Below, in pieces: positions 5,939-62,215 of a stretch of DNA of 64,000 nt (position 1 is its first letter; each line of letters starts with the position of its first letter). Both the position numbers and the translations under genes were made by a program. The notes beneath the pieces were generated by a model, which had not been told where the DNA came from, made no database searches, and saw only the letters and a program-made list of their open reading frames with translations. This DNA is from Cymbomonas tetramitiformis (taxonomy: Eukaryota; Chlorophyta; Pyramimonadophyceae; Pyramimonadales; Pyramimonadaceae), in contig LGRX02034572.1 of assembly GCA_001247695.2 (NCBI GenBank), positions 1 through 64,000 of the forward strand, written 5' to 3'.

Positions 5939-6184
5939 TTTAAAAAATGGATCGGTATAATTTTACACTACACCACTGAGATTAAGATATAATTTGACGA
6001 TTACGTGTCATTTTATGTGAAGTGACATTTAGCAATGTTAAGATGAAGCTTTGTCATTGAAGCTTTGTCGAGCGAGGAAAATTCAATGTCATTTAGCAGT
6101 GTTAAGGTGAAGCGGCCTTGTCATTCGGTTTCCTATTGGTTTAGGACAGAAGCCATCGTGTCACGTATATAAATATAGGAGGGG

Positions 6185-6311
6185 ATGTGGGGGGTGGAGG
6201 GGAGGGGGAGGGGGAGGGGGGTGGGGGAGGGAGGGTGGGGGAGGGGAGGGGGGAGTGTGGGGTGGGGGGGGTGGGGGGGAGTGTGGGGTGGGGGGGTGGG
6301 TGGGGGGATGT
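6185..6311 (+). repeat. G-rich tract, G-quadruplex potential
   Basis: About 125 bp made almost entirely of runs of three to seven G separated by T, A or TGT (GGGGGTGGGGGGG-type). The plus strand offers many overlapping G3+N1-7 motifs. It lies downstream of TATATAAATATA at 6167-6178. Any regulatory role is inference. Confidence 0.8.
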
Positions 6312-7187
6312 GGGTTGTTTCAAAGTTTATTCAAAGTTTACGTTCGTTCATGAAGATTGGGGATTATTTTTTTCCCCACCTGCGTTTTATACGTACTCCC
6401 TATATGCATAACTTATATAAGCTATACGCAGAGCGCTAAAGGGTCATGCCGGCGGAGAAGCAGCAGTGGACGCGGCGGTGGAGTGACCCCCCCATTGTCG
6501 GTAGACCGGAAACCTCCTCCCGTTTTCAGCTTTCCCGTTTTCATCCACCAATCAGAATCGTGGAACGAAACGAGGAGCCAATCCATCCTATTCGTGCGAT
6601 GCATGCAAAGCAAAACGAGGAACGCCAATTCATGGCTACTATCCCGCGGTTTCGAAGTTGCGGCTGGAAGCTCTGAGTTTTTGAAATCGAGTTCGTATAA
6701 TTTTGATCGTGGGAATTTCATTGGCCGCAACAATTTCATTGGCCGGTTGCGAATCCTGAGGACGAACCTCCATACCTCGTGAAAAGGAGTTTCTCGGACT
6801 TTCGCCAAATGCGCGGGCAGAGTGACACTGCGTGTCTTTATTTCGGACGGTTCAGAGATTTCGCCGGAGCGTGACAGATCGTGAAGGATCAGCCAAAAGT
6901 CAATCGCCGTCTGAAAGGTCAATCAGCGTCAATCGAAAATAAATTTACTCATTTCGCAACAGATCTCGACCGCAAAATATTTGCCACTGAAATCTGACGC
7001 CCAATTTGGCACAGTTTCCAGAGCTTCGCCCCAAAACGATTATTCAATCTATTTCCCAATTCCCATACGTTTCCCGTCGCCGTAGTTACAATTATATCAT
7101 CTCTTTCTCTAACTTCAAGCCATAGCCATACAGGTGACATATGACACAGTGTCACGCCTGATAGCTTTATACCCTCCCGTCTCCGAC

Positions 7188-54648: not shown

Positions 54649-54833
54649 GATCAAACTTTCCTCTTGTTGCCTCGGCCACGAGCAGCAACTTGCGGTGTGG
54701 CCGCAGATGATGTAGTTTCTTCTCGCCCTTTGCCTCGTCCACGAGCAACAGGTGGGTGTGCAGCCGCAGATGATGCAGCTCCCCCTCGCACCTTGCCGCG
54801 GCCACCAGCAGCAGCTCGCGGCACCGCCGTTGA
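54649..54833 (-). pseudogene. 3' part of a Gly-Arg-rich repeat gene
   Basis: The minus-strand frame reads GGRGKVRGGAASSAAAHPP, VARGRGKGREETTSSAA and AARGRGNKRKV, then a TGA (54651-54649). Repeats of about 20 residues with (A/V)ARGRGKGR are like AT-hook or RGG-type nucleic-acid-binding tails, and NKRKV looks like a nuclear localisation signal. The matching upstream part lies 7.4 kb away at 62216-62711. The gene is split by the transposon 54834-62211. Confidence 0.6.
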
Positions 54834-56229
54834 TGTCTATTGGGCTCAAGGTGGGGTAACCCACCGTAAGAACGCCCGTTACGGTGGGTTAACCATAGCG
54901 TAGTTTGTTAACACCATAATGCACATCGAATGGTCTCAAATATGGTCGATCATATGTGATTTCACAACTAAACATTCATGTTTAGCTGGACAAAGCCGAA
55001 TGACATGTACTTGTGATCGGATATATCCGCGGTATCCATCCCAATATACCTCCGATGGCACGTTCGGTGCCGTGATCCCAAATGCACACAAACGTGGCCC
55101 GATTTCTACGTTTCGTCCACGATGCCAATGTGCGCATGGGTGTATTTCGTGAAGTTTGATATATTTCAATCACCTTGAGTCAATACTTCGCGAGAAACAT
55201 GCATATATATATCCCCGTATAGACAAAATATCGTCATTTTTGCCCTTAAGTACGGAAACACATTAAAATTGCAAATGTTTTTTTTTGTTCTTTTTTCTTA
55301 AGTTACTTGTGTAGAGTGATATATTCGATATATCGAATGGCGCCAAGTATAAGAAACATTTGTTATGGGCCATAGTTCATGAAAATATTGTGATAGGTAC
55401 ATTCCGAATGTGATGGGCATGTTCAAAATCTACCCCGAAGATGCAATAATTGGGTAACCCACCGTAAGGATTTGAGGTGTTTTTTCGCTTGACCCCTTGG
55501 TATTAGCACGCATATTAGACGCATCTATACAGTATGTAAAGTACTTTGTTCAAGTCCACGCACTAATATACACACTGAGAAATAAACGTGGTAAAATGGT
55601 GGTAAAATGTGGTAAACTGGTGGTAAATTGTGGTAAATTGGTGTTTTACCACCATTACACTAATAGTGGCGATATAAATCCCGTGGGTAATTTCCTATTG
55701 GTAACGTGGAAGAATTCTAACACGATTTTACCACATTTACTTATAGAGCGGTAATTATATATTATTGTTTACCATTGCTGTATATAATTTACCATGGTAC
55801 CCCCCTATGACCGGTAAATTGACCCCCAATGGTAAAATTACCACATATGACCGGTAAATTGACCCCCAATGGTAAAATTACCACATATGACCAGTAAATT
55901 TACCACGGTATGACCACGGGTGGACACGTGGCAGGCAGTATGCACTGTGATACGGACACGTGTGCAAGATTAGTGCATGTGGCAATCAGGCATGGAATGT
56001 TACATAACTGTTACCAGATATGCTATGCTAGGATCTTGCAGGCGGCATACTAACTAGGAGGGTCCAACTATGTCTATCAATACGGCGTGCGTGCTATATT
56101 TGCAAAAGCTAATTTCATACGTTTTCTGCATCGGAGATCTTGCAGCTTTCCGCCCGGCCGTCTTCCAAATTCCCCGCCTGTCACACATGCAACCCATGGC
56201 ATCCATCCCGCAACACGACCTACCTTAAC

Positions 56230-58420
56230 CATTAGCTGAGTAAACCATAAGCCGAGTCACGCTTGAATAATCACACACAACCACTTCCCAGCACAGGCCA
56301 GCACCGCGGCCGCCATAGCCAACATACAACGCGCCTCCCGTTTCCCACCTAACCCATGTGTGTGTCTCACCGCCGTCGCCAACCCCCTTGGCCGCTGATT
56401 CGCGACCGCAGAAGAAGCACGCACAAGCGCTAACAAGGGTTAGTATCCACCCACCCCGCGCCTGATTCGGCGCAAAGTGGGATAGACACCCTTGATTGAT
56501 CACACAATCATGTCCACTCCCTAGCCCAAGCCAACACCGCGCCACGCTCCTCCCGTTTCATGGCACCGCCGCCCCACCTGACCCACGTGTGTGTCTCACC
56601 GCCGTCGCCAACCCCCTTGGCCGCTGATTCGCGACCGCAGAAGAAGCACGCACAAGCGCTAACAAGGGTTAGTATCCACCCACCCCGCGCCTCATTCGGC
56701 GCGAAGTGGGACAGACACCCTTGATTGATCACACAATCATGTCCACTCCCCACCCCAAGCCAACACCGCGCCACGCTCCTCCCGTTTCACGGCACCGCCG
56801 CCCCACCTGACCCACGTGTGTGTCTCACCGCCGTCGCCAACCCCCTTGGCCGCTGATTCGCGACCGCAGAAGAAGCACGCACAAGCGCTAACAAGGGTTA
56901 GTATCCACCCACCCCGCGCCTGATTCGGCGCAAAGTGGGATAGACACCCTTGATTGATCACACAATCATGTCCACTCCCTAGCCCAAGCCAACACCGCGC
57001 CACGCTCCTCCCGTTTCATGGCACCGCCGCCCCACCTGACCCACGTGTGTGTCTCACCGCCGTCGCCAACCCCCTTGGCCGCTGATTCGCGACCGAGAAG
57101 AAGCACGCACAAGCGCTAACAAGGGTTAGTATCCACCCACCCCGCGCCTGATTCGGCGCGAAGTGGGATAGACACCCTTGATTGATCACACAATCATGTC
57201 CACTCCCCAGCCCAAGCCAACACCGCGCCACGCTCCTCCCGTTTCACGGCACCGCCGCCCCACCTGACCCACGTGTGTGTCTCACCGCCGTCGCCAACCC
57301 CCTTGGCCGCCGATTCGCGACCGCAGAAGAAGCACGCACAAGCGCTAACAAGGGTTAGTATCCACCCACCCCGCGCCTGATTCGGCGCGAAGTGGGATAG
57401 ACACCCTTGATTGATCACACAATCATGTCCACTCCCTAGCCCAAGCCAACACCGCGCCACGCTCCTCCCGTTTCATGGCACCGCCGCCCCACCTGACCCA
57501 CGTGTGTGTCTCACCGCCGTCGCCAACCCCCTTGGCCGCTGATTCGCGACCGTAGAAGAAGCACGCACAAGCGCTAACAAGGGTTAGTATCCACCCACCC
57601 CGCGCCTGATTCGGCGCGAAGTGGGATAGACACCCTTGATTGATCACACAATCATGTCCACTCCCCACCCCAAGCCAACACCGCGCCACGCTCCTCCCGT
57701 TTCACGGCACCGCCGCCCCACCTGACCCACGTGTGTGTCTCACCGCCGTCGCCAACCCCCTTGGCCGCTGATTCGCGACCGCAGAAGAAGCACGCACAAG
57801 CGCTAACAAGGGTTAGTATCCACCCACCCCGCGCCTGATTCGGCGCGAAGTGGGATAGACACCCTTGATTGATCACACAATCATGTCCACTCCCCACCCA
57901 AGCCAACACCGCGCCACGCTCCTCCCGTTTCATGGCACCGCCGCCCCACCTGACCCACGTGTGTGTCTCACCGCCGTCGCCAACCCCCTTGGCCGCTGAT
58001 TCGCGACCGCAGAAGAAGCACGCACAAGCGCTAACAAGGGTTAGTATCCACCCACCCCGCGCCTGATTCGGCGCGAAGTGGGATAGACACCCTTGATTGA
58101 TCACACAATCATGTCCACTCCCTAGCCCAAGCCAACACCGCGCCACGCGCCTCCCGTTTCACGGCACCGCCGCCCCACCTGACCCACGTGTGTGTCTCAC
58201 CGCCGTCGCCAACCCCCTTGGCCGCTGATTCGCGACCGCAGAAGAAGCACGCACAAGCGCTAACAAGGGTTAGTATCCACCCACCCCGCGCCTGATTCGG
58301 CGCAGAGTGGGATAGACATCCTTGGTTGATCACACATGTCCACTCCCCAGCCCAAGCCGACACCGCGCCCGCCACAGCCAACACGCACCGCGCCATGCCT
58401 CTCCCCTTTTTGCCGCTCCG
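56230..58420 (+). repeat. 229-bp tandem array, about 9.5 copies
   Basis: Highly similar units of 228-229 bp containing GACCCACGTGTGTGTCTCAC, AACAAGGGTTAGTATCCACC and TTGATTGATCACACAATCAT. The outer units (near 56270 and 58330) are more diverged, as expected for an array growing from within. The minus strand gives a repeated 88-residue ORF (MARCWLGLGSGHDCVINQGC...). Because 229 is not a multiple of three each unit restarts the frame, so translation is not implied. It lies just downstream of the ceramide synthase exons. Confidence 0.95.
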
Positions 58421-59184
58421 CACCGCGGCCCCCTAAGACACCTACCCACCCTCCCCGCATCTCGTCACGGCCCGCCGTGAGCGTGTATTTTTCCGTACGT
58501 GCGCATGACCTAGATATACTGGAACTGGATATACTGGAACCCTGGAACAGCTGCCACGCCAGCAAGGGCACGTACAGCAAAGCACGTTAAGTGGATTCAG
58601 AAAGGGAGTGAGCCGGACCCAACACCATGTACTAATCGCCAAGGTTGAGGCAAGGAGTGAGACCGTGCAACGCACAAACTGAGGGGGGGAGCTCACAGCA
58701 GGCGCGCCGAGCCCTGTGCCCCGATCCAGAAGGAAAAAAGGCTAGTGAATCGCCGCTGGCTTTCTAACCAGTACCTCACTTTCCGAGCGAGTGGAAAGGC
58801 TCCGAGGGGAGTGAAAAGGCATCCCCCCTAGTCGTAACTCGAGGGGGCACACGAGCAGGCAGCGCGACCGCTGCCCCTATGGAATGCAGCAGAAGGCGGG
58901 CCACCGTAGCTTGCCCTCAACGTGCGAGTTGGGAAAACCCACTCCGAAAAGAAAGTGCCAGCCCGCGTGGATCTGACCTTCTTTGCCGGCTTCTTCTCCT
59001 CCTCGACCTCCTCCATTTCCTCCTCACCCCCCTAACACCGGACATAACACATGGTTTTCAAAGTTTTGTGCGATGGCGTGGTCTGTGGGCAGTTTTTTTG
59101 AGGAGGATTTGCCTACCCGAAACAGAGGTTGGAGAGAGGTCAGGTATAAAATAGGAATCGAGTAAGTAATAGCCAGTCGAGTAC
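58421..59184. other. Region between the array and the ceramide synthase exons
   Basis: A minus-strand frame at 59016-58828 (MEEVEEEKKPAKKVRSTRAG... with FFSEWVFPTRTL) could contribute the C-terminus of the ceramide synthase, since an acidic/basic tail and a W-x-F-P-T-R string are family-like, but no clear splice junction joins it. An acceptor CCCACAG at about 59092 would instead add a short tail ending at a TGA near 59036. Confidence 0.35.
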
Positions 59185-61390
59185 CGCTACTGCGATTATG
59201 AAGAATCCACACGACCGCCCCCACTCGGCAGTGGCTTTGCTGGAAAGATAAAAGCAAAAGGAGAACTGTGCATAGATGGTGCGTTGTCATCTCCACGAAA
59301 TCCTGAAAGCGGATCAAAGACGAGCGTTAGCACAACCGCCGGCATCATGAGCGTTAGAAATAGCTAAACAAAAGCGAAAAAACGGAAACAATCTACGAAG
59401 CTGGAAAGATCTTGTGGTGGCTTTATGGATACAAATATCATAAGTTGAACAGATCCCTACCTTTCTTTTTGCGTCCAAAAATAGAGAAACCACCCCGGCC
59501 AGGTACCAGCTTGCCTCGAGAAAGTATAGGGCCTTGAACTCGGCGGGAACGGTGTACTGACGATCGTATTTCCACATCTCGTCCAAATTGTATAACCAGC
59601 TTTCGCGACCAAGGCAGACCCAAGAAAGAAACAGTGACAACGAGTAAAAGCTGAACTCCTGTCGGAATTGGAGCTACTGCTTAGTGAACAGAAGCTGTAC
59701 CTTCATGGTAGCAAACGGGATAAAGATAAAGTGATGTCAAAAGCGCCGAAATGAGGAGGGCACATCGGCTTGCCATATTCTAACCGTGCCGTCCTCCACA
59801 TGCACGAGGGTCGCTGCTATTGCTCTTGACACACGGCAAGGTTGGTTTCACACCCGAAGCGCCTCTGCAAACTTCGCGGTCTCCTTGGCAGTTTTCAGTC
59901 CCGCAAGCTTCGCCAAGAAGGAGAACACAGTGGCCTGCGTTTGTGGGTTGCACGGCACAGGGTCAAGAAAGATAAGATGAGATGGAGCGGAGTAGAACCC
60001 AACCGTTATCCTTGAAAATATGATACAACTCACGTTGTCACGCAGCAATCAAGCGTACCTTGAATAGCTATGAAGTCGAATATTGACAGCCAGGTAGGTC
60101 TCTCTATCATTTCTAAATGCACTCACGCGTTTTTGCAGTTGCCATAACCACATATGCCTGAGTAGATCAGCGCGATGTACGGGCCGTACAGTTTAAGGGC
60201 AAGACCTGAAGAGTCCGTACGGTGATGAACATCCCAAAAACAAAACAAGCCAGAGCAACGCCGTCCTTCTTGACATCCTTAAAGCCCGAATCCCTGAGAA
60301 CTCTGTCTTCATCAGCCAACTCGCCAGTGACGACGCGCCGAGTATAGTTCACAAGAAATAGAGCCTCCTGAGCTCCAAGCTCAACATCTCCCTGTGCGAT
60401 ACAGAAGAAGACGCTTACATTTAGTCGGTGAGCTAGGAGTAGACTGGCATGGTCAGAGGTCTGTCTTAGCGCACAGACTTCAAATAGTGATGTCCTGCGT
60501 GTGGAAAACACGGTTGATAGCAGCGCAGATCGAGCAAAAAAACATCTCTGAAAAAAGCTTTCAGCATGCACACACGGGAGACAATTAAAGGTATCCACAA
60601 ACTAGCGCACAAAACTAGTGGCAACAGTGTTGCTCTGTCCTCAACGGCTATCTTTCCCGGCGCATTGAAGAAATTAAGAAAATGGCACAAAGCAGACGTA
60701 GAGAAAAACCGCACCCAAGATATAGCCATCCCTTTCCACCTTTATGAACACGGCGATCGTCCTGAAAGCTTAAGATTTTGATAGACCTGTGTGTCAGGGC
60801 TACTTAAATAAGTAATGCATAACATAAAAGTGAACCTAAGTGAAGATTGCAGCTTCAACTTGCCGCGCGTCCGCAAGGCTAGCAATATTCCATACAGTCA
60901 GAGATCATGCTGTGAAGAAAATGTGCGTTACATGATAAGTAGGACGTAAGCACAAGTATATCTACTGCCCCCCCCCTACGGTATGCGTGCACCACACCTT
61001 AGCGGCCTTCTTTTTCTCGCGTCGCTTCTTGCTTCTGCTCGCTCCCTTTTCTGAAGTCGGAGCGCCGTTTACAACATCCGTAACGACTCCGTTTCCCGCC
61101 TACAAAGAAATAAGACCCCCGCATATATCGATTTTCCAGGAGGATGACAGTTGACGTGTCCGATTGCATAGCACGCTGAAACATCAGGAAGATCCTAGGG
61201 TTCCTCTCGTGCAAATCGAACTCGCAAAAACTAACTACAAACAGTTCCTTACACAGCCGCATTGCATGGCCGAAGAAACCAAAAAGTCTACTACCGTAAA
61301 TTTATTTCGAGGCGATGAACGTCCAAGTGGGTAAAAGAGGAATGAAGGCGCTACCTCCTCAGAACCGTTGACTTCAAGATCAGCTCCCAT
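59185..61390 (-). CDS. Ceramide synthase (LAG1/TLC domain), 3' end unresolved
   Basis: Catalyses N-acylation of sphingoid bases in the ER membrane. Minus-strand exons with matching phases: 61390-61355, 61099-60998, 60651-60572, 60494-60419, 60391-60206, 59934-59854, 59658-59461, 59302-59185 (877 nt, 292 residues). Residues 1-46 are hydrophilic with a basic cluster (SKKRREKKKAAK). Hydrophobic segments follow near 55-70 and 142-158, then KFAEALREFSFYS (181-193), DEMWKYDRQYTVP and DAKRKDFVEMTTHHLCTVLL, where His261-His262 are the catalytic pair of the Lag1 motif, then RVGAVVWILHNRSS, matching the conserved HDxSD region. The last transmembrane part of the TLC domain is not recognisable downstream, so the gene is either 3'-truncated or its final exon is diverged. 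A family member is usually 330-420 residues. It lies inside a transposon. Confidence 0.88.
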
Positions 61391-62215
61391 TATGACCACT
61401 GTTCGAAGACTTAGGTATCAGACGTGTTTACAGGGATTCGGAAACTAATATATCCCCCTAGGTCCCAAAAAAATGCCACGAGGGACACGGGAAGACTAAG
61501 TATCGAGCTGAGAGGAACGTGAGCTGCACCCTCTGCTCGCTGCGTGCTCGAATTTGCCGACTCTTTGGCCTTCGAGACGGTAGGCTCCTTGCCTGTTGAG
61601 TCCGTAAAAAGTACAGTAGTTTGCGGCAGAATGAATAGCAAGCTCGCCCCCGGGGACTGGACGGGCACGGCGCTCCACTCCTTTCAAATTCTACCTTGCG
61701 TTGGTGACACAGACCAGACGAGAGAATTGCACATCTCGATCTGAGACCATTCCCGATCCTCGTTTACCACGATTTACCAGCTCCGTCTCTATATTTATAC
61801 TACATTGCGAAGTTTTATATCCATTTACCATTAGGCCACGACCATTTACCATTCCAGATCCTCGTTTACCACGCTCCGTTCTGAAATTACCAGGCTTTTA
61901 CCATGCTTCAACCTATGTTACCGCAAATTACCAATGATTTACCGTCAGTTATATATATTTTTTAAAATATTTTAACGTTTACCACCTGATTACCACCCCA
62001 CATAGGGGCTTACCGCCGTTTACCACCAGTTTACCACATTTTAACACCAGTTTACCACATTCTACCACGATTCCTTCTCAGTGTGATAACCCCCAAGGTG
62101 TGTCGAAAAGCATGGGTTTGCCCAAGTTGGCACAATATGCTAGCTCTAACATGCGGTTTTCGAATGTCTCTTACGGTGGGTAAACCCACCGTAAGGTGCG
62201 CCCAATAGACATTGA

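Follow-up and report, generated by a model that had tools for sequence, protein, structure and literature searches.

A probable Pack-type transposon with captured ceramide synthase and SF3B2 gene fragments in the green alga Cymbomonas tetramitiformis

Does a transposon in the green alga Cymbomonas tetramitiformis carry a ceramide synthase (CerS) gene that could act on lipid metabolism, or does it carry pieces of host genes? The question is raised by a 6.5-kb element in a 64,000-nucleotide stretch of contig LGRX02034572.1 (the window; contig C24462 in our labelling), which a preliminary description took to be a mobile unit holding an almost complete ceramide synthase gene. We searched the 851.7-Mb assembly of 25,745 contigs for its ends and contents; contigs are labelled C and fetched pieces L. 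We conclude, with a probability of about 0.88, that the element is a non-autonomous Pack-type (CACTA-like) transposon, a serial collector and amplifier of host gene fragments. It has the features of Pack-TYPE elements, namely terminal inverted repeats (TIRs) with a target-site duplication (TSD), host-gene DNA that is also found elsewhere, several copies with the same ends, and no transposase of its own.

The TIRs are 11 bp long; CACACTGAGAA starts at position 55571, its complement ends at 62085, and each occurs once in the window. Next to them, GGTAAA or its complement TTTACC is found 25 times in the 870 terminal bases versus 19 times in the other 63,130 bases of the window, and 1000 single-base shuffles of the terminals gave a mean of 0.6 and a maximum of 5. 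These repeats stand in direct and inverted orientations, as in the CACTA superfamily. The inverted ends, ATA flank and dense subterminal arrays of the preliminary description are thus confirmed, as is its proposal that the whole unit was inserted at once into another element with TIRs and a 4-bp duplication. That outer, MITE-like (miniature inverted-repeat transposable element) host is flanked by TTGA at 54830-54833 and 62212-62215. When its two flanks were joined with one ATA into a 152-base probe, 39 of the 40 genome matches scored (363 candidates at first look) spanned positions 1-152 and the remaining one 2-152, at ~99% identity. Since the joined flanks are intact elsewhere, they represent the pre-insertion site, and the 6.5 kb with its 3-bp duplication arrived as one event. 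Several inverted GGGTAACCCACCGTAA motifs lie inside the outer element.

Copies of the termini are plentiful in the genome. The 11-mer TIR occurs 695+733 times, versus 91+100 for a control with its sequence reversed; for the 18-bp 5' end there are 257+263 = 520 exact occurrences, versus 0 for its control. Other copies of the termini, proposed earlier as a check, are thus present, and some of them carry the same CerS gene. We fetched the 11 TIR pairs that, in the first 100 listed places, followed each other as + then - within 15 kb; pairs 19-21 kb apart (C282, C388) fall outside this set. Identical 3-bp TSDs of varied sequence, as expected of CACTA elements, flank nine of the 11 (P 3e-15 at 1/64) and the window element. 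Among seven single ends fetched, three (L024, L025, L028) lack subterminal repeats and look like chance 11-mers.

The CerS segment has its donor on C14319. By blastn, a single block of this locus, 702-2505, is common to nine element copies at 99.45-99.83% (C118, C13844, C19910, C21714, C24336, the window, C25, C2845 and C5941). The 5' junction with DNA of the splicing-factor gene SF3B2 is present in all nine and the 3' junction in eight; eight copies end at donor base 2505 and C21714 ends three bases earlier. The 5' TIR could be read in seven copies, which have six different 5' flanks; that of C24336 lies outside the fetched piece, and C5941 is cut by a contig end. The window copy differs from the donor at five sites, two of them exonic and both synonymous. 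Across the set, the difference at 755 is found in all nine copies, that at 1651 in eight and a V>M change (2475) in seven, while three copies have a 3-bp insertion. The nine copies are best read as one recent capture followed by amplification. The donor gene (L059), the separate canonical locus that had been sought, is longer than the captured block: its exon matches to the protein P0001 reach residue 289 and include exons downstream of the block, and one weaker match, to residue 313, crosses two stops that are probably an intron. P0001 was considered as this alga's own gene and rejected, since the C14319 locus is closer to the capture; P0001 therefore comes from a relative. A second, divergent LAG1-like match lies at C12227:2607-3098, with 30% identity to P0001 residues 157-304.

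These copies bear on two simpler explanations. A native ceramide synthase locus lying between unrelated transposon ends would account for the introns and upstream DNA, but it is refuted by the empty site in the outer element and is opposed by the canonical gene on C14319, the nine bounded copies and the hundreds of ends; we regard it as next to impossible. An assembly chimera of transposon and gene contigs is also very improbable. The genome is highly repetitive and was assembled from mixed reads (PMC10675990, which may not describe the assembly used here), and the TSDs of C25 do not match; against this, the same 5' junction is seen on nine contigs, the readable 5' flanks are mostly different, and the join of SF3B2 leader and array recurs in the gene model CYMTET_14526, on a contig of 43,091 bases versus 65,531 for that of the window.

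We then asked what the captured segment could encode. Its manually composed exon translation contains a TLC (LAG1) domain (Pfam PF03798, 56 bits) with the His-His pair, and in our manual gene model the introns are GT-AG and phase 0, so that the intron-containing LAG1-family gene of the preliminary description is indeed present. The protein query used was a composite with two guessed pieces (IAVEDRATLL... and MASRCALLI...) that are intronic compared with P0001; its matches rest on the other parts. The domain match covers only profile positions 10-112 of 198. The captured block breaks off within exon 5 with ...WILHN, so that 196 of about 313 residues are present and the claim of an almost complete enzyme is wrong. 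In an alignment to human CerS6, the terminal Asn lines up with Asp239 and the Asp in the missing LSD with Asp242; His211/His212 and Asp239/Asp242 are reported to be essential in CerS6 (PMC11919693). Asn in place of Asp239 (Lag1p motif) is likewise seen in the donor, P0001 and P0002. The segment thus lacks the rest of the TLC domain, and it ends upstream of the C-terminal motif, DxRSDxE in ceramide synthases (PMC8789539) and DERSDSD in P0001. Since the cut in exon 5 removes an essential Asp and the remaining C-terminus, the product should not be an enzyme, and as judged from its sequence the captured ceramide synthase is very probably dead.

It follows that there is very little room for the view that a functional ceramide synthase is mobilised with the element, which would increase sphingolipid gene dosage. 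The open frame over five exons, the intact splice sites, the retained His-His pair and the synonymous exonic changes would fit it, but all nine copies stop inside exon 5 without the Asp242 equivalent and everything beyond it, seven carry the V>M change, and in C21714 a 7-bp insertion shifts the frame in exon 4. There is thus no support for the suggestion that the insertion could spread or modulate lipid metabolism through an enzyme, because the CerS part is truncated and the outer exons belong to SF3B2; an effect through a chimeric product or RNA is possible. The eight exons described earlier probably equal those of our model in total, but only five are CerS, the fifth being cut, and three are SF3B2.

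The assignment of the outer exons rests on P0005, which matches MGADLEVNGSEE-AGNGVV...KKKAAK and GGEEEMEEVEEEKKPAKK. P0005 has Pfam DUF382 and PSP domains, which we take to mark SF3B2, and in the PDB it matches splicing factor 3B subunit 2 (E 1.4e-143). An origin of the leader from methionine aminopeptidase 2, considered earlier, was rejected on this ground. With one long SF3B2 locus (C10815) found besides the CerS donor, both host-gene sources are located, which supports the Pack-type character first proposed. At least 57 further places match SF3B2 exon 2 (a lower bound, 73 of 1712 candidates having been scored), and six of these also have the 96-123 stretch. Since the SF3B2 pieces are 97.2% and 98.5% identical to their donor and the CerS piece 99.7% to its own, the SF3B2 capture looks older. 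Between CerS and the second SF3B2 piece lies a 171-bp piece with a match in C22899, close to the beginning of a 1475-bp insert that sits exactly at SF3B2 position 1246 and encodes a Tudor domain (PF21743, E 2e-7).

The sister elements allow the order of captures to be read. L011 holds SF3B2 donor positions 303-963 and 1180-2711 (about 2.2 kb including upstream DNA), with a piece of a coiled-coil gene exactly at donor position 2155; the donor of this cargo is C23885 (protein CYMTET_50782). L010 combines the leader with the coil cargo and the beginning of the Tudor cargo. The window element has no coiled-coil part; its leader is followed by CerS, the 171-bp Tudor remnant, the acidic part of SF3B2 and the array, and the 1.8 kb of CerS is joined at the GT that serves SF3B2 exon 2 as splice donor. 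The 57 exon-2 places comprise 37 whose contigs hold the coil, nine with CerS and 11 with neither; from these 11 we inspected C22899 and C1240, the latter a form without cargo. In the simplest order of events, an ancestor resembling L010 would have lost the coil from between its 171-bp piece and its acidic exon, and CerS would have entered at the splice-donor GT. Pieces of the gene model CYMTET_18484 are carried by a second lineage (L012, L014, L016, L018, L022, L027), in which five of the six elements include a part with a PF00591 domain, presumably TrpD-like; L022 is cut by a contig end.

Could the captured exons be expressed? In a manually chosen splice model, SF3B2 exon 2 is followed by CerS exons 2-5 and the acidic exon, all with GT-AG introns, in phase 0 and stop-free. 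The public protein CYMTET_14526 is an analogous gene model with coil cargo, in which SF3B2 leader and array are joined and the leader is identical to that of the window over 12 and 34 residues. Our findings suggest that public models such as CYMTET_14526 and CYMTET_18484 are transposon chimeras. One could picture a reusable exon trap in which the SF3B2 promoter and two phase-0 leader exons receive exchangeable phase-0 cargo, expressed in frame as in SF3B2-CerS, with some products acting on the host. We consider this unlikely; if it held, the fusions could be, for example, dominant-negative membrane partners of ceramide synthase or sources of small RNAs against the donor. For the captured enzyme fragment, chimeric transcripts or small-RNA cross-silencing of donors would be the likely effects.

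As to mechanism, the host DNA may be acquired through template switching while DNA is repaired or replicated, the CerS junctions having 2 bp (GT) and 1 bp (C) in common with their partner. A transposase supplied in trans would recognise the TIR and GGTAAA ends, and cut-and-paste transposition after capture would spread the element. Inside the element no transposase was found, the sole frame of at least 150 aa lying within the 229-bp array. Transposase_21, by comparison, is abundant in the genome (all 150 scored sequences above the cut-off; 1984 candidates). Elements that share the ends and have long open reading frames (ORFs), our group 3, are possible autonomous partners. L013, L015, L017, L020, L021 and L023 have the same ends and long ORFs without assignment, and L013:2775-4166 (+), which lies on the other strand and may belong to a nested element, encodes a DUF7869 domain.

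Several observations weigh against the Pack-type, CACTA-like interpretation. One or two shared junction bases are weak evidence alone, and the third junction, between the 171-bp piece and SF3B2, is a G-run with no clear overlap. Two of the 11 TIR pairs (L009, L018/L019) have no matching TSD. Among the CerS copies, C21714 (L058) is incomplete, with unrelated DNA after the CerS piece; C24336 is incomplete too, the 5' part of the window element being matched only from position 335; and the 5' flank of C25 equals that of C13844. The TIR begins with CACAC, not CACTA or CACTG, the latter being an alternative start in the CACTA superfamily. No accepted transposase was found by Pfam in group-3 and related ORFs (24 ORF entries, two entered twice), none of the group-3 elements could be recognised as an autonomous carrier of these TIRs, and searches with Pfam, and with hidden Markov models and hhalign against local Transposase_21 sequences, tied no transposase to these ends. 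It is therefore possible, if doubtful, that the same Pack-type element is mobilised by a non-CACTA transposase, such as a DUF7869-bearing or uncharacterised group-3 protein. The missing CACTA motif, the group-3 ORFs without a Transposase_21 match and the DUF7869 ORF in L013 speak for such an enzyme, while the 3-bp TSD of free sequence, the dense inverted subterminal repeats and the abundance of Transposase_21 in the genome fit CACTA.

Elements of this kind are known from other hosts. Tgm-Express1 of soybean, a 5.7-kb CACTA element with five host gene fragments (PMC1947982), likewise combines pieces of several genes, and use of their splice sites yields chimeric transcripts; it is from a plant and its transcripts were shown, whereas the Cymbomonas element is from an alga, with donors located, nested captures and amplified sublineages. 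Pack-CACTA and Pack-TYPE elements of flowering plants are also non-autonomous, TIR-bounded and formed by genic capture at the DNA level, sometimes from several loci, but have classical CACTA TIRs (PMC8903248); the words alga and Chlamydomonas are absent from the main text of that paper. It gives a 5-nt TSD for rice and maize CACTA elements, versus 3 bp in PMC8978399. Chenopodium CACTA elements share direct and inverted subterminal repeats, the 3-bp TSD and the capture of both gene fragments and satellite arrays; unlike ours, the complete members described there carry a transposase ORF (PMC8978399). Animal Pack-TIRs show multicopy capture with short microhomology (median 2 bp) and later amplification, and FoSTeST, the template-switching model for these hosts, may apply here by analogy (PMC8277862). 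Among the titles and abstract openings listed in our literature searches, mostly outside subscription journals, we found no Pack-type capture in a green alga. The Cymbomonas element is one more example of a type already described, with an unusual host and unusually legible serial captures: with donors, breakpoints, sister elements and empty sites in one genome, the order of capture can be read stepwise and is testable. The genome is given as 850 Mb-1.2 Gb (PMC5741210) and its repeats as 627.3 Mb, or 68.3% (PMC10675990), and our results suggest that a plain count of ceramide synthase or SF3B2 genes in Cymbomonas would be inflated.

Table 1. Features of the Cymbomonas element and its surroundings in window coordinates. 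The strand of the transposon is that on which the captured genes read.
Feature	Position	Strand	Basis
Whole element, probable Pack-type DNA transposon	55571..62085	-	TIRs, ATA TSD, subterminal arrays, empty site in paralogues, 520 exact 5' ends
ATA TSD, left copy	55568..55570	.	
ATA TSD, right copy	62086..62088	.	
Family-conserved 5' end, TIR CACACTGAGAAGGAATCG and GGTAAA/TTTACC subterminal repeats	61671..62085	-	positions 1-415 at 91-93% to group-3 L013, L015, L017, L020
Family-conserved 3' end, TIR CACACTGAGAAATAAACG and subterminal repeats	55571..56025	-	positions 6061-6515 at 90-96% to group-3 elements and L026
229-bp tandem array, 8.9 copies, common to several sister elements	56344..58369	.	
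Captured CerS segment, 1804 bp with introns, donor C14319:702-2505	59194..60997	-	99.72% to donor; junctions common to other copies
CerS exon 1 (MAISW)	60715..60729	-	
CerS exon 2	60206..60391	-	
CerS exon 3	59854..59934	-	
CerS exon 4 (TLC domain start)	59461..59658	-	
CerS exon 5, truncated, with His-His, end ...WILHN	59195..59302	-	
Captured 5' SF3B2 DNA (upstream sequence, exons 1 and 2 with intron 1)	60996..61536	-	97.2% over 541 bp to canonical C10815 (L066)
SF3B2 exon 1, MGADLEVNGSEE	61355..61390	-	
SF3B2 exon 2, AGNGVV...KKKAAK; joined to the CerS piece at its splice-donor GT	60998..61099	-	
Second SF3B2 piece	58577..59029	-	98.5% over 453 bp to C10815
Modelled SF3B2 acidic exon GGEEEMEEVEEEKKPAKK	59031-58978	-	
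171-bp alignment to third cargo; last bases in G-run junction with SF3B2	59024..59194	-	98.8% to L010:1350-1520
Outer MITE-like host element, 860 bp without insert, TIR TGTCTATTGGGC, TSD TTGA	54834..62211	.	

The survey of window positions 1-54000 covered ORFs, repeats and composition, with Pfam comparison of a few of the ORFs. Within the element, only 58370-58576, 61537-61670 and 56026-56343 match none of the SF3B2, CerS, 171-bp, array or end pieces. In C21714, the DNA that replaces the 3' part has internal repeats of its own. The 229-bp array (56344-58369) is common to elements with different cargo, and its frames encode the GETHTWVRWGGG peptide of public protein models; array peptides are found in the gene model CYMTET_18484 too, and group-3 elements contain stretches 74-77% similar to the array unit.

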